The translations under genes were made by a program, and so were the position numbers. This document shows, one piece after another, positions 467-3,901 of a stretch of DNA of 6,295 bases. Position 1 is the stretch's first letter, and every line of letters starts with the position of its first letter. The stretch lies in contig CABMDX010000047.1 in NCBI GenBank assembly GCA_902385025.1, forward strand, positions 1 to 6,295, given 5' to 3'. The DNA comes from an uncultured archaeon. GTDB lineage: Archaea; Halobacteriota; Methanosarcinia; Methanotrichales; Methanotrichaceae. The notes beneath the pieces are model-generated. The model saw nothing but the letters and a program-made list of their open reading frames with translations. It searched no databases and was not told the origin of the DNA.

Positions 467-633
467 AGCGGGTTTTGGAGGGTAGCACTTCCTTGAAGGA
501 AAAGGCAATTGCGCGCTTCGACATGCTGCGCCTGATCCAAATGGAGGCGGCTGCCCGAAAACGGCACTTGAAGGCGGTCCTGGTGCACTCTTGCGTAACT
601 ATATATCTCCATAGCATTCTTTTTGGCTTTTGA
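463..633 (+). CDS. Possible small protein (56 aa), doubtful
   Basis: An ATG overlaps the stop of the pentapeptide gene in the ATGA arrangement typical of translational coupling, and the frame stays open for 56 codons to TGA 631-633. The protein (MKRVLEGSTSLKEKAIARF... to ...HSILFGF) has a basic, probably helical middle (ARFDMLRLIQMEAAARKRHLKAVL) and a hydrophobic end. Up to about codon 46 the codons resemble those of the neighbours. Against it, there is no Shine-Dalgarno before the ATG, the last third overlaps the TATA element proposed for taw1, and I recognise no family. It could be a genuine coupled small gene, a decayed gene remnant, or chance. Confidence 0.3.
   Translation: MKRVLEGSTSLKEKAIARFDMLRLIQMEAAARKRHLKAVLVHSCVTIYLHSILFGF
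593..608 (+). promoter_or_regulatory. Archaeal BRE/TATA box for taw1
   Basis: CTATATATCT (599-608) follows GCGTAA (593-598), giving a TATA box with a plausible BRE. The centre near 603 predicts a transcript start around 628, about 7 nt before the ATG at 635. No Shine-Dalgarno is visible there, so taw1 may be translated from a nearly leaderless mRNA. Confidence 0.55.
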
Positions 634-634
634 T

Positions 635-1570
635 ATGGATTCTCAGGATCAGGCCAGGCAAACCCTCACCAGGCAGGGCTATCACCTCGTGGGCTCGGGA
701 GCAGTCAAGCCCTGTTTGTGGCTCAACCGCTCTTTGAGGGGCGGAGATCAATGCTACAAGCACCACTTCTATGGCATTTCCAGTCACCGCTGCGTACAGA
801 TGACACCAACGCTCGAATGTAACCACCTCTGCCTGCATTGCTGGAGGCCCATCGACGATCCCGTTCCTGGAAATGAGCCTATGGAGCCTGCTGCGCTGCT
901 GGACGGAATACTGCAAGGTCAGAGCAAGTTCCTTTCCGGCTATGGAGGTGCCAAGACCACATCAGTGAACCGGTTGGCTGAGGCCCGCAAGCCCAGGCAT
1001 GTTGCCATTTCGCTTATGGGCGAGCCAACCCTCTATCCTTACTTAAAGGAGTTCATAGAGCTGATAGGCAAAAGAGGATTGACATCATTTCTGGTAAGCA
1101 ATGGCACCAACCCGGATGTCCTGGATGATCTTCGGCCGACGCAGCTATACCTGAGCCTGAATGCACCTGACGAAGATATGTACAGGCGGGTATGCCAGCC
1201 CACAACGGACCTTTGGCCGAAGATACTGGAAAGCCTGGGATTGTTGAGTGAGCACAAATGCCGCAGTGTTGTGCGTATGACAGTCGCCCGCGGCCTGAAC
1301 ATGGAGCGTCCAGAGGATTTTGCCCGCATAATCAGGGCAGCAGAGCCCGACTTTGTTGAGGTCAAGGCTTATATGCACCTGGGACGCTCTCGAAAGCGCC
1401 TGGAGAGAAAAGCCATGCCGGATCATTCCGAGGTACTGGGCTATGCTCGCGCTCTTGGCAAAGCCCTGGGCTATGAACTGGAGGCAGAGGTTCCCCTGAG
1501 CAGAGTCGCTCTCCTCTCCAGCGGCCGCATCCCCCGAAGCCTGGGGCTGCAAGAGTCGCAGGAGCTTTAA
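635..1570 (+). CDS. taw1: tRNA 4-demethylwyosine synthase (Taw1/TYW1)
   Basis: Radical SAM enzyme that condenses N1-methylguanosine at position 37 of tRNA-Phe with pyruvate-derived carbons to form 4-demethylwyosine, the tricyclic core of wyosine bases. From ATG 635 the protein is 311 residues, the usual length for archaeal Taw1. The radical SAM motif is C62-x3-C66-x2-C69 (ECNHLCLHCWRP). Three further cysteines, C27, C40 and C53, are each 13 residues apart, as expected for the second [4Fe-4S] cluster of archaeal Taw1. Cys40 sits in CYKHHFYGI, whose Lys42 matches the lysine proposed to form a Schiff base with pyruvate. SLMGEPTLYP, LVSNGT and the C-terminal LLSSGRIP are also family-typical. An in-frame TTG at 623 would add four residues, but ATG 635 fits the TATA spacing better. 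No other wyosine genes lie in the window. Confidence 0.96.
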   Translation: MDSQDQARQTLTRQGYHLVGSGAVKPCLWLNRSLRGGDQCYKHHFYGISSHRCVQMTPTLECNHLCLHCWRPIDDPVPGNEPMEPAALLDGILQGQSKFLSGYGGAKTTSVNRLAEARKPRHVAISLMGEPTLYPYLKEFIELIGKRGLTSFLVSNGTNPDVLDDLRPTQLYLSLNAPDEDMYRRVCQPTTDLWPKILESLGLLSEHKCRSVVRMTVARGLNMERPEDFARIIRAAEPDFVEVKAYMHLGRSRKRLERKAMPDHSEVLGYARALGKALGYELEAEVPLSRVALLSSGRIPRSLGLQESQEL

Positions 1571-1850: not shown

Positions 1851-2246
1851 ATGGATAGGGAAATAAAGATCATGCTGGTGGAAGACAATCTCGAAGATGC
1901 TGCATTCACGCAGAGGGTCCTGAAGTTCAATAAGCTCAGTCGGGACCTGGTCTTGGCCACCAGCGGTCGGGAGGCTATGGATGCCCTGCAAGAGAGAGCC
2001 AAATCAGGAACCCCTCCTGAGCTCATATTGCTGGATATAAATCTGCCCGATATAAGCGGCATAGATCTGCTTACCCTTATCAAGAAAGAGAAGGCCTTTT
2101 CAAGCATTCCCGTAGTCATTCTTACGGGCTCAAATGAGGATCAGGATATTCAGAAGAGCTATGACCTGGGTGCGAGCAGCTATCTGGTCAAGCCGATCTC
2201 CAATGATGCCTTGATGCAGGTTATCGAGAAGCTATTTTATCCCTGA
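1851..2246 (+). CDS. Single-domain response regulator (Rcp1-like receiver)
   Basis: A stand-alone CheY-like receiver of 131 residues with no output domain. It carries all the phosphorylation residues: acidic pair E11-D12 (MLVEDN), phosphoacceptor D62 (LILLDINLPD), T92 (VVILTGS) and K114 (SSYLVKPIS). The pattern LVEDN...LLDINLPDISG...IPVVILT.S....DI..SY matches the Rcp1 type of receiver, which commonly partners histidine kinases and phytochromes and is abundant in Methanosarcinales. Phosphotransfer or protein-protein signalling in the cytoplasm is the likely role; the cognate kinase is not in the window. The start is ATG 1851, preceded by GGGTGA (1841-1846); an in-frame TTG at 1839 is less likely. 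Its last 15 nt overlap the end of the convergent endonuclease IV gene. Confidence 0.94.
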   Translation: MDREIKIMLVEDNLEDAAFTQRVLKFNKLSRDLVLATSGREAMDALQERAKSGTPPELILLDINLPDISGIDLLTLIKKEKAFSSIPVVILTGSNEDQDIQKSYDLGASSYLVKPISNDALMQVIEKLFYP

Positions 2247-3086
2247 GGCAAGCCTTCTTGCCACATCGAGATTCCCAATGTCGTCCCGACGAAGGTCTTC
2301 TGGTGTCTCCAGGATCATCGGCAAATCCCGGCAAACTGGATGATTTAGAACCGCCCTGAGCCCCTCTTCACCGATATGTCCTAATCCCAGATGCTCATGC
2401 CGATCCCGCCCTGATCCCAGGGTTCCTCGACAATCGTTCAGATGGATGAGCTTCAACCGTTCTATGTCTATGCAGCCAGCAAATCGATTCATTGTGTCCT
2501 TAAGGTTTGCAGGAGTCCTCAAATCGTAGCCTGCTGCATGCAGGTGGCATGTGTCCAGACAGACCCCCAGATGCCCCCCATCCAGCTCCCGCGATTTGAT
2601 GATGGCAGATATATCCTCAAAGCTGCTGCCCATGCTATTCCTGGTGCCGGCGCTGTTCTCCAGAAGAATGGTCACGGTGCCAGAAGCCGCCTCAAGAGCA
2701 GTCTGCAGCGCGCGAACGATCCTTGAGCGTCCCTCCTCCACGCCGGAGCCTTTGTGGCTTCCCAAATGTGTCACCAGATAGGGTATACCAAGCATCCGGC
2801 ATCGCAGCACCTCCGTCGCGAGAGCCTGCACCGATTTTAGATAGACATCCTCCTCAGGTGAGGCAAGATTGGGCAGGTAGGGCATGTGATCGACTACCGG
2901 GAAAAGACCTGATTCCTTGAGGTGAGAGGCGAAGCTCTGCGATGCTTCTTCTGTGAGGGGCTTTGTCCTCCAGCCGCGCGGATTGGAGGTGAAGATCTGA
3001 AAGGCATCGCAGCCCTTTTCCAGGGCCCTGTCCACGGCCCTTTCAACACCACCGGCCACTGAGATATGCACGCCCAATCGCACCAT
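2232..3086 (-). CDS. nfo: Endonuclease IV (AP endonuclease, deoxyribonuclease IV)
   Basis: A zinc-dependent AP endonuclease of base-excision repair, cutting 5' of abasic sites and removing 3' blocking groups. From ATG 3086 the protein has 284 residues, typical for the family, and is a TIM barrel opening with MVRLGVHISVAGG. All nine metal ligands expected from E. coli Nfo are in place: H67 (DHMPYLPNL), H107 (THLGSH), E143 (LLENSAG), D178 and H181 (CLDTCHLHAAGYD), H215 (LIHLND), D228 and H230 (GRDRHEHLGLG) and E260 (LETP). The frame stays open upstream to 3218, but MVRLGVHIS is the conserved N-terminus. ATG 3086 has GGTGA about 8 nt upstream, and a TATA-like element at 3119-3129 predicts a start near 3098, so the longer forms are rejected. 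The stop lies inside the convergent response-regulator gene. Confidence 0.96.
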   Translation of the reverse strand: MVRLGVHISVAGGVERAVDRALEKGCDAFQIFTSNPRGWRTKPLTEEASQSFASHLKESGLFPVVDHMPYLPNLASPEEDVYLKSVQALATEVLRCRMLGIPYLVTHLGSHKGSGVEEGRSRIVRALQTALEAASGTVTILLENSAGTRNSMGSSFEDISAIIKSRELDGGHLGVCLDTCHLHAAGYDLRTPANLKDTMNRFAGCIDIERLKLIHLNDCRGTLGSGRDRHEHLGLGHIGEEGLRAVLNHPVCRDLPMILETPEDLRRDDIGNLDVARRLASGIK

Positions 3087-3156: not shown

Positions 3157-3216
3157 GCGCCTGTGATGATTTTGGTTGCTCTGAGAATGTGATGAGCCCT
3201 ATGAGTTCTGAGGCGC
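3157..3216 (+). ncRNA. Box C/D sRNA, predicted guide for C34 of elongator tRNA-Met
   Basis: A complete archaeal box C/D sRNA of about 60 nt. Box C is GTGATGA (3163-3169), D' is CTGA (3181-3184), C' is GTGATGA (3189-3195) and D is CTGA (3208-3211). The guides are 11 nt (3170-3180) and 12 nt (3196-3207), matching archaeal spacing; the D'-C' spacer is GAAT. A perfect 5-bp terminal stem closes it: GCGCC 3157-3161 with GGCGC 3212-3216. The D guide GCCCUAUGAGUU is complementary to AACUCAUAGGGC. The nucleotide five upstream of box D (G3203) pairs with the C of CAU in CUCAUAG, which is C34 of an elongator tRNA-Met anticodon loop. A guide for that site is known in Haloferax. The D' guide UUUUGGUUGCU would target A in AGCAACCAAAA; I do not recognise that RNA. 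L7Ae, Nop5 and fibrillarin would be the protein partners. Confidence 0.9.
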
Positions 3217-3292: not shown

Positions 3293-3607
3293 TCAGGCTT
3301 GGGAGGACATTTTCAACTTGGCCCAGCGGCTGATATTATCTATTAAATTCAGCTCAACAATCTTTCGGGCATCATAGAGCATCTCAGCCACATCATTCAG
3401 GGCAAAGCTCTTCTTCTGGCCCTTCTTGTCAACCACCTCGATGACCTCTCCGGGCAATGCCTTGGCCATCTCCCGCATTTGGCCTGCCATCACAGAGCAG
3501 GCTTTTTTGAGGTATTTAATCGAGTAGTCAGATGTAGGCTTCCTGTCGGTGAGGTTCCGGTTGACCTCCTTGATGGACCAGCACATGGTAAGAATATCCC
3601 TGTACAT
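3293..3607 (-). CDS. Small conserved-looking protein of unknown function
   Basis: A protein of 104 residues (MYRDILTMCWSIKEVNRNL...). I do not recognise the family and see no catalytic motif, signal peptide or membrane segment. It looks mostly helical, with basic and acidic heptad-like stretches (SIKYLKKACSVMAGQMREMAKAL and LNDVAEMLYDARKIVELNLIDNISRWAKLK) around a short probable beta-hairpin, GEVIEVVDKKGQKKSF. That suggests a small soluble, perhaps oligomeric or binding protein. ATG 3607 has GGTG (in GTGGGTGCC) about 5 nt upstream; an in-frame GTG at 3619 would add MGAK. A TATA box at 3637-3647 predicts a start near 3617, leaving a leader of about 10 nt and favouring ATG 3607. The gene is followed by a hairpin terminator and appears to be its own transcription unit. 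Confidence 0.8.
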   Translation of the reverse strand: MYRDILTMCWSIKEVNRNLTDRKPTSDYSIKYLKKACSVMAGQMREMAKALPGEVIEVVDKKGQKKSFALNDVAEMLYDARKIVELNLIDNISRWAKLKMSSQA

Positions 3608-3636
3608 CTTGGCACCCACTTCCCGTTTGGTGGGAG

Positions 3637-3680: not shown

Positions 3681-3718
3681 GGTGGGGCTGGTGAGATTCG
3701 AACTCACGATCGACGGGT

Positions 3719-3851
3719 CTCTCCGATACTGAAGTGCTTACAGCCGGAATGGATGGCTGATAACAACTCATTTCAGTGCTCCAACGGATCATCAACGGCC
3801 TCCCCGTCGAGAAGCCTCAGTAGACCCGTTGCTCATCATTAAATAATACCG
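3719..3851 (-). other. Archaeal tRNA intron excised by the splicing endonuclease
   Basis: The 133-nt intron is delimited by the bulge-helix-bulge described for tRNA-Trp. It is long for an archaeal tRNA intron because it encloses a C/D guide RNA. Downstream of the D box it has an extra hairpin, CAGCC (3755-3759) with GGCTG (3741-3745), around a 9-nt loop. Its last two nucleotides (AG) repeat A36-G37, so one guide can pair with exon 2 before or after splicing. Confidence 0.93.
3773..3839 (-). ncRNA. Intronic box C/D guide RNA for C34 and C39 of tRNA-Trp
   Basis: In the intron, read on the minus strand: box C ATGATGA (3833-3839), D' CTGA (3817-3820), C' TTGATGA (3789-3795) and D CTGA (3773-3776). 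Both guide spacers are exactly 12 nt. The D' guide GCAACGGGUCUA pairs 8 bp with A36-U43 (AGACCCGU), and the fifth nucleotide before D' faces C39. The D guide UCCGUUGGAGCA pairs with G31 to G37, and its fifth nucleotide faces wobble C34. In the precursor that pairing extends three more base pairs into the intron (10 bp in all, one G-U). The D'-C' spacer forms an 8-bp hairpin (GGCTTCTC/GGGAGGCC, loop GACG). Homologous intronic guides for tRNA-Trp positions 34 and 39 are known in Haloferax and other Euryarchaeota. Confidence 0.94.
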
Positions 3852-3901
3852 CTGGAGCCCGTCGCCCTACCTGGCTAGGCCACAGCCCCGGTTTTTTAAA
3901 G

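Follow-up and report, generated by a model that had tools for sequence, protein, structure and literature searches.

The contig stretch analysed here, from an uncultured Methanotrichaceae archaeon that is probably a Methanothrix (6,295 nucleotides, the whole of which we refer to as the window), carries, next to an nfo-like gene, a 60-nt element with the appearance of a box C/D sRNA. The question raised by this locus is which nucleotide of which RNA such an sRNA would address. An earlier note on this DNA, made from the letters alone, had proposed C34 of elongator tRNA-Met, or of its precursor, as the site of methylation.

Reportedly, the formation of Cm34 in Haloferax depends on the sR-tMet RNA, a result from 2011 that is attributed to Joardar and known to us as a citation. 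In haloarchaea, sR-tMet is listed for Cm34 with reference to Joardar 2011 (PMC4033218, excerpt), and 18 sRNA candidates have been reported for Cm34 of pre-tRNA-Met (PMC2584109, excerpt). The same excerpt names the Pyrococcus tRNA-Met guide sR49 and suggests position G1950 of the 23S rRNA for an orphan, sR41. Guides of this type, the site they address and their need for the unspliced tRNA have been described before in Haloferax and other archaea, and they are predicted for Pyrococcus (PMC2584109, excerpt). Two human RNAs, SNORD97 and SCARNA97, target the same nucleotide, C34 of elongator tRNA-Met, but are eukaryotic and are described as pairing with the anticodon stem-loop (PMC6601510, excerpt). 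In the open-licence literature, searched by title or abstract start, we found no paper on such a guide RNA in Methanothrix, nor did we meet, in the portions of that literature available, the claim that a single guide underlies both sR41 and sR-tMet.

Anatomy of the sRNA and its Rfam relatives

Judged by its sequence, the element is a complete box C/D sRNA and a new copy of a known guide type (Table 1). Boxes C, D', C' and D follow one another in order, the guides fall within the archaeal range of about 10-12 nt, the spacer between D' and C' measures 4 nt and a stem of 5 bp closes the RNA. Direct reading thereby confirms the perfect boxes, the spacers of 11 and 12 nt and the 5-bp stem that had been described before. 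Counted upstream from box D, the fifth nucleotide (N+5) is G3203, which lies opposite C34 of the relatives' elongator tRNA-Met.

Table 1. Position and evidence of the sRNA, its parts and its flanking genes in the window
Feature	Position	Strand	Evidence
nfo-like gene (AP endonuclease 2 / TIM barrel), divergent neighbour	2232-3086	-	Pfam PF01261, E = 8.7e-45; likely start at 3086
Whole box C/D sRNA gene (Rfam sR41 / sR-tMet type)	3157-3216	+	Direct reading, Rfam, covariation, model search
Terminal stem, 5' arm, GCGCC	3157-3161	+	Direct reading; stem covariation
Box C, GTGATGA	3163-3169	+	Direct reading; aligned with 40 other copies
D' guide, 11 nt	3170-3180	+	Variable among relatives
Box D', CTGA	3181-3184	+	Direct reading
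Box C', GTGATGA	3189-3195	+	Direct reading; aligned with 40 other copies
D guide, 12 nt, GCCCTATGAGTT	3196-3207	+	Complements the 5' exon-intron junction of the relatives' elongator pre-tRNA-Met
Box D, CTGA	3208-3211	+	Direct reading
Terminal stem, 3' arm, GGCGC	3212-3216	+	Direct reading; stem covariation
tRNA-Trp(CCA), intron with sR3-type box C/D guide at 3771-3843	3683-3889	-	Rfam, intron-allowing ARAGORN

In Rfam, the best match for this stretch is sR41 (RF01126; 44.6 bits, E = 4.9e-8). Boxes, spacing and D guide are all as in that family, and in the Rfam alignment the window copy shows the D guide GAGCCCUAUGAG followed by two bases and CUGA; the D' guide differs. The score falls short of the family's gathering cut-off (54 bits), so that the gene would escape routine annotation. 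Among six other loci scanned, three exceed this cut-off (Thermococcaceae, 61.5 bits; Methanoperedens, 60; RumEn M2, 55.7). The earlier description of the sRNA as being of an unannotated type is therefore right with regard to the cut-off and wrong in that the RNA belongs with an existing family.

The haloarchaeal family sR-tMet (RF02163) has the D guide core and the predicted target in common with the window sRNA, which nevertheless scores just 23.4 bits against it, below the gathering cut-off of 50. The Natrinema copy, by contrast, matches sR-tMet with 61 bits; it is a longer RNA (73-nt match), and its pre-tRNA junction is CACUCAUA/GGGU, the slash here and in the following marking the exon-intron boundary. 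An 'sR41' is among the sequenced small RNAs of Thermococcus kodakarensis, by name (PMC9014305, excerpt). The tRNA-Trp intron guide that matches Rfam's sR3 is called sR50 in PMC7994747, so Rfam numbering need not equal that of PMC2584109; as the schemes may differ, we do not claim that the latter errs about its sR41.

Genomic neighbourhood

As called mechanically, the nfo ORF extends to 3218 and runs across the sRNA in antisense. Its start is likely at 3086, where the protein would begin with MVRLGVHIS; this would put the sRNA upstream of nfo, in divergent orientation. The placement of the sRNA opposite the nfo leader, as proposed in the earlier note, holds with this start.

On the other side, 466 nt separate the sRNA from tRNA-Trp(CCA), which is followed by tRNA-Lys. 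ARAGORN missed the tRNA-Trp with default settings and found it when introns were allowed. The intron matches Rfam sR3 (54.5 bits, E = 8.3e-12), the box C/D RNA of the pre-tRNA-Trp intron for Cm34 and Um39. It would likewise be an anticodon-arm guide, but one that sits inside a tRNA intron, whereas the predicted guide for tRNA-Met is a separate gene. The window thus has two predicted anticodon-arm guides, for tRNA-Met and tRNA-Trp, within 0.8 kb. Among 30 loci found with the sRNA model (see below), 16 within the genus and 14 outside, tRNA-Trp and tRNA-Lys lie downstream of the sRNA in 15 of the 16 other genus loci, the contig of the sixteenth ending first; within about 1.5 kb of the sRNA, the pair was met in none of the 14 loci outside the genus.

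Two further genes of the window may be mentioned here. A radical SAM protein with the wyosine-formation domain PF08608, by its sequence probably a tRNA position-37 modification enzyme, is encoded at 623-1570 (+), at a distance of 1.6 kb from the sRNA. A small ORF of 108 aa that has no Pfam match (3293-3619, -) occupies part of the interval from the sRNA to tRNA-Trp.

Conservation of the sRNA

Of 41 genomes searched by BLAST with a 70-nt stretch, 34, among them the own, have a match at E < 1e-4; at E <= 1 the number is 39, which includes chance matches. For more sensitive searches, we used a covariance model built from 41 copies, namely the window and 40 of the 47 located copies; six near-duplicates of other copies and one longer copy (L173) were left out, and L099, L100, L103 and L162, in which the script failed to place box C, were also dropped. 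At E <= 0.01, this model finds the sRNA in 115 of the 119 genomes of the class, at least 26 of which had themselves supplied model copies, and in all 100 class genomes with at least 90% completeness and at most 5% contamination.

The terminal stem shows two-sided changes at all four modelled pairs, with 91.5% of cells paired. Its covariation score of 0.565 was reached in none of 500 shuffles (shuffled mean 0.173); the bare count of pairs with two-sided changes was equalled by 59 of 500. The D guide is near-constant, its core CC[C/T]TATGAG being identical in all copies read. The D' guide, on the other hand, changes even between congeners, and we therefore propose no target for it. This drift fits the pattern in Pyrobaculum, whose tRNA-targeting sRNAs have one guide without a target (PMC7994747, section 6).

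The exact guide pattern TGANGAGCCCTATGAGNNCTGA matched at least 117 stretches. The 80 of these that were listed are all archaeal and include Methanothrix, Methanosarcina, Methanoperedens, Methanomassiliicoccales, Marine Group III, DHVE2, Natrinema, Haloterrigena, Thermococcaceae and Pyrohabitans. All 80 fit the sRNA model at E <= 0.01, some being training copies; the lowest scores, 30.9-34.5 bits at 10 loci, are weak, and four of these matches cover the 3' half only. A match from the Diapherotrites (L182) was rejected as a good copy, with no Rfam match at E <= 0.01, 33 bits against our own model and no clear upstream box C.

Two observations concern additional copies. In one genome (G152 of family f4, locus L338, contig G152:C206), two copies of the tRNA-Met guide lie about 1.3 kb apart; their D guides are identical, and their D' guides differ slightly. 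The own genome has a weak second match of the sRNA model (29.8 bits), a C/D-like sequence (L389, G000:C193:4095-4152, -) with a different D guide, GGATATTGAGTT, whose complement is AACUCAAUAUCC; a comparison with rRNA loci gave no clear match, L020 and L029 reading on the strand opposite to the rRNA.

The junction of elongator pre-tRNA-Met as predicted target

The lead to the target came from a tRNA-like pattern, which in seven genomes met GAGACTCATA followed by GGGT within a tRNA gene. A first tRNA pattern found nothing in 41 genomes, probably because its D-arm was written too strictly. A gapped pattern matched in 19 of the 41; the site in G031 is not a tRNA, and the remaining 18, out of 25 genomes of the genus, have an intron-bearing elongator pre-tRNA-Met. 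Their gene reads GAGA or AAGA, CTCATA/GGGT, CCTGAG, A and then TCTCG or TCTTG. The intron ends fit a bulge-helix-bulge, with a central helix of CUCA and UGAG and 3-nt bulges. The putative cut sites follow the general archaeal splicing rule, and by archaeal tRNA features the genes read are presumably those of the elongator, the initiator or tRNA-Ile(CAU), as named here.

The D guide complements the 5' exon-intron junction of this pre-tRNA, GACUCAUA/GGGU, with C34 at N+5. With the junction of the congeners, the window guide would form the pairs U-G30, U-A31, G-C32, A-U33, G-C34, U-A35, A-U36 and U-A37 with the exon, followed by C-G, C-G, C-G and G-U with the first intron bases; the Methanothrix junction is GACUCAUAGGGU, and a G-U stands at both ends of the duplex. 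Of the two forms of the RNA that the earlier note had allowed for, it is the precursor that fits, three pairs of the core lying within the intron. The exact target string offered there, AACUCAUAGGGC, is absent from all 86 pre-tRNA junctions that were read. The note's string AACTCATAGGGC occurs 101 times in the retrieved loci, 97 times as the antisense of a box D; the other sites are L106, L209, L255 and L008, and there is no tRNA gene at L008.

The own assembly (2.28 Mb in 390 contigs, 78.6% complete) yielded no elongator tRNA-Met gene, either with the patterns or with a pre-tRNA model. The exact guide complement, CTCATAGGGCTC, occurs in it only in the sRNA itself, and of 17 one-mismatch sites, the seven that were read (L002 to L008) have no tRNA gene. 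With the gene absent from the assembly, we infer the window's target from the relatives, whose tRNA-Met the window's own, unassembled one would resemble.

The pre-tRNA model has strong matches in 18 of the 25 genus genomes and in all genomes of two other families (14 of 14 in f3, 2 of 2 in f2). The genus genomes with no match (G000, G001, G002, G003, G005, G014 and G016) are all less than 90% complete. Across the class, 109 of 119 genomes match at E <= 1e-14, and the junction was read in 59 of them. Both genes were found in 106 genomes, the sRNA only in nine, the tRNA only in three and neither in one; the 13 lacking the pair are G105, G123, G144 and 10 genomes of less than 90% completeness. 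When 40 of the exact-pattern genomes were searched with the same model, 31 gave an elongator pre-tRNA with a CUCAUA/GGG junction; no elongator was identified in the other nine, and the matches read there, in all but G053 and G060, are other tRNAs. No intron-less elongator tRNA-Met gene was met among the genes read. One elongator gene, L391 of G064 (Thermoplasmata), appears to carry, in addition to the intron that follows position 37, a further insertion in its T arm.

Guide and target agree across genomes

The complementarity is intact wherever both genes were read. A script that accepts only core-form guides and junctions, and that prints what it skips, found all nine core pairs (positions 32-37 and intron bases 1-3) to be Watson-Crick in 84 of 84 genomes. 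As 30 of these genomes had been picked by the exact guide pattern, their independent evidence comes from the tRNA alone. The only genomes skipped, G025 and G027, have an unusual T loop; read by hand, they too show nine of nine Watson-Crick pairs. The arrangement for which sR-tMet is known, with the D guide on elongator pre-tRNA-Met and C34 at N+5, thus recurs in 18 congeners and in 84 of 84 scripted pairs, and the earlier note's assignment of N+5 to C34 extends beyond the genus.

The two hand-read genomes, which belong to one family, are instructive. Their junction is CUCAUA/AGGG and their guide CCUUAUGAG: intron base 1 is A and guide nt 9 is U, whereas the other 84 genomes have G and C, respectively. 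Against this junction, a guide of the usual sequence would have a mismatch at intron base 1. This two-sided change is probably a single event in sister genomes.

At guide nt 2, a U faces A31 in 80 genomes and a C faces G31 in three (G055 of the Thermococcaceae, G065 of Pyrohabitans, and G069); in G054, a C mismatches A31. The outer positions are loose, nt 1 pairing in 52 of 84 genomes and nt 12 in 50 of 84, G-U included. When targets were shuffled among genomes, the observed pair total of 839 was reached in none of 2000 trials (maximum 837), a result that rests on G055, G065 and G069 and ignores relatedness.

Mature tRNAs, rRNA and nfo as alternatives

Given that the genes read for tRNA-Ile(CAU) and initiator tRNA-Met share the CUCAUA loop, the sRNA might have mature tRNA-Met, or every CAU tRNA, as its substrate, and its pairing with the intron would then be incidental. 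Cm34 is indeed not confined to the elongator, as it is found in the initiator tRNA-Met of P. furiosus and M. maripaludis (PMC7668247, excerpt). Yet guide nt 9-11 pair with intron bases 1-3 in all 84 scripted genomes and in the two read by hand, and once the tRNA of G004 is spliced, nt 9 would stand opposite A38. By RNAduplex, the guide has -19.9 kcal/mol on the precursor, against -11.1 on the mature anticodon arm; on a congener's tRNA-Ile(CAU), it has -12.3 kcal/mol in a different register. We regard an action on mature tRNAs as very improbable.

An equally slim chance attaches to a target in rRNA, such as helix 69 of the 23S rRNA (G1950 in the numbering of PMC2584109). Its case is the suggestion of G1950 for the Pyrococcus sR41 noted above and the prevalence of rRNA matches among archaeal sRNAs (about two thirds of 489; PMC4644070, excerpt). 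In 16S and 23S rRNA proper of five relatives, read on the correct strand, we found nothing strong or common to all. The best ungapped matches there reach 8.5 to 10 of 12 at scattered places, and the best duplexes have -12.4 to -15.2 kcal/mol (-12.4 to -13.4 in three genus genomes; -15.2 on the 16S rRNA of G028), compared with -19.9 for the pre-tRNA. Furthermore, N+5 faces a C rather than a G, and in the family of G025 and G027 the guide changes along with the pre-tRNA. In the own genome (78.6% complete), rRNA models found no rRNA.

Finally, an antisense or leader RNA for nfo, as the element's position opposite the region upstream of that gene might suggest, is the least probable of the three: copies sharing its boxes and guide are present in 115 of 119 class genomes, and conservation lies in the D guide and boxes, not in the flanks.

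Discussion

We predict that the window sRNA guides methylation of C34 in unspliced elongator tRNA-Met, and put the probability of this reading at about 93%. Against it stand the assignment of the Pyrococcus sR41 to G1950 and of sR49 to tRNA-Met in PMC2584109, where the numbering may be another, and the snoRNAdb target list for P. furiosus, which, as quoted in the excerpt of PMC7668247, is without tRNA-Met. By analogy with Haloferax, the RNA would be made and used by an L7Ae-Nop5-fibrillarin particle, which would place the D guide on the unspliced tRNA, with guide nt 9-11 on the first three intron nucleotides (GGG), and methylate C34. As the guide covers the 5' (CUCA) strand of the predicted bulge-helix-bulge while nt 9-11 pair with the intron, methylation would precede splicing, the same conclusion being drawn from intron pairing in PMC2584109 (excerpt). 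Since the genes read for tRNA-Ile(CAU) and the initiator have the CUCAUA loop without such an intron, the intron would favour the elongator, and its GGG may provide the specificity against these two tRNAs.

A wider reading, tentative and in our judgement rather unlikely, joins these points. It holds that one guide has been filed under two names, sR41 and sR-tMet, and that its D guide has been kept since early Euryarchaeota together with an elongator tRNA-Met intron whose first three bases act as a disposable tag, setting the elongator apart from the other CAU tRNAs. As guide binding and the splicing fold would be mutually exclusive, methylation would then be a checkpoint before splicing. Two published points speak against a specificity based on GGG: the initiator Cm34 of P. 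furiosus and M. maripaludis, and the tRNA-Trp intron of H. volcanii, itself a methylation guide, which can be deleted with no loss of viability (PMC4090602, excerpt).

With the predicted C34 methylation of unspliced elongator tRNA-Met, a guide RNA of Methanothrix, an acetate-using methanogen, gains a specific target, and the main gain over what was described before is in breadth and in the covariation of guide and target. The results suggest that two Rfam families share one job. They also offer a test of why archaea keep the intron of elongator tRNA-Met: a role as tag and checkpoint, if true, would explain its retention.
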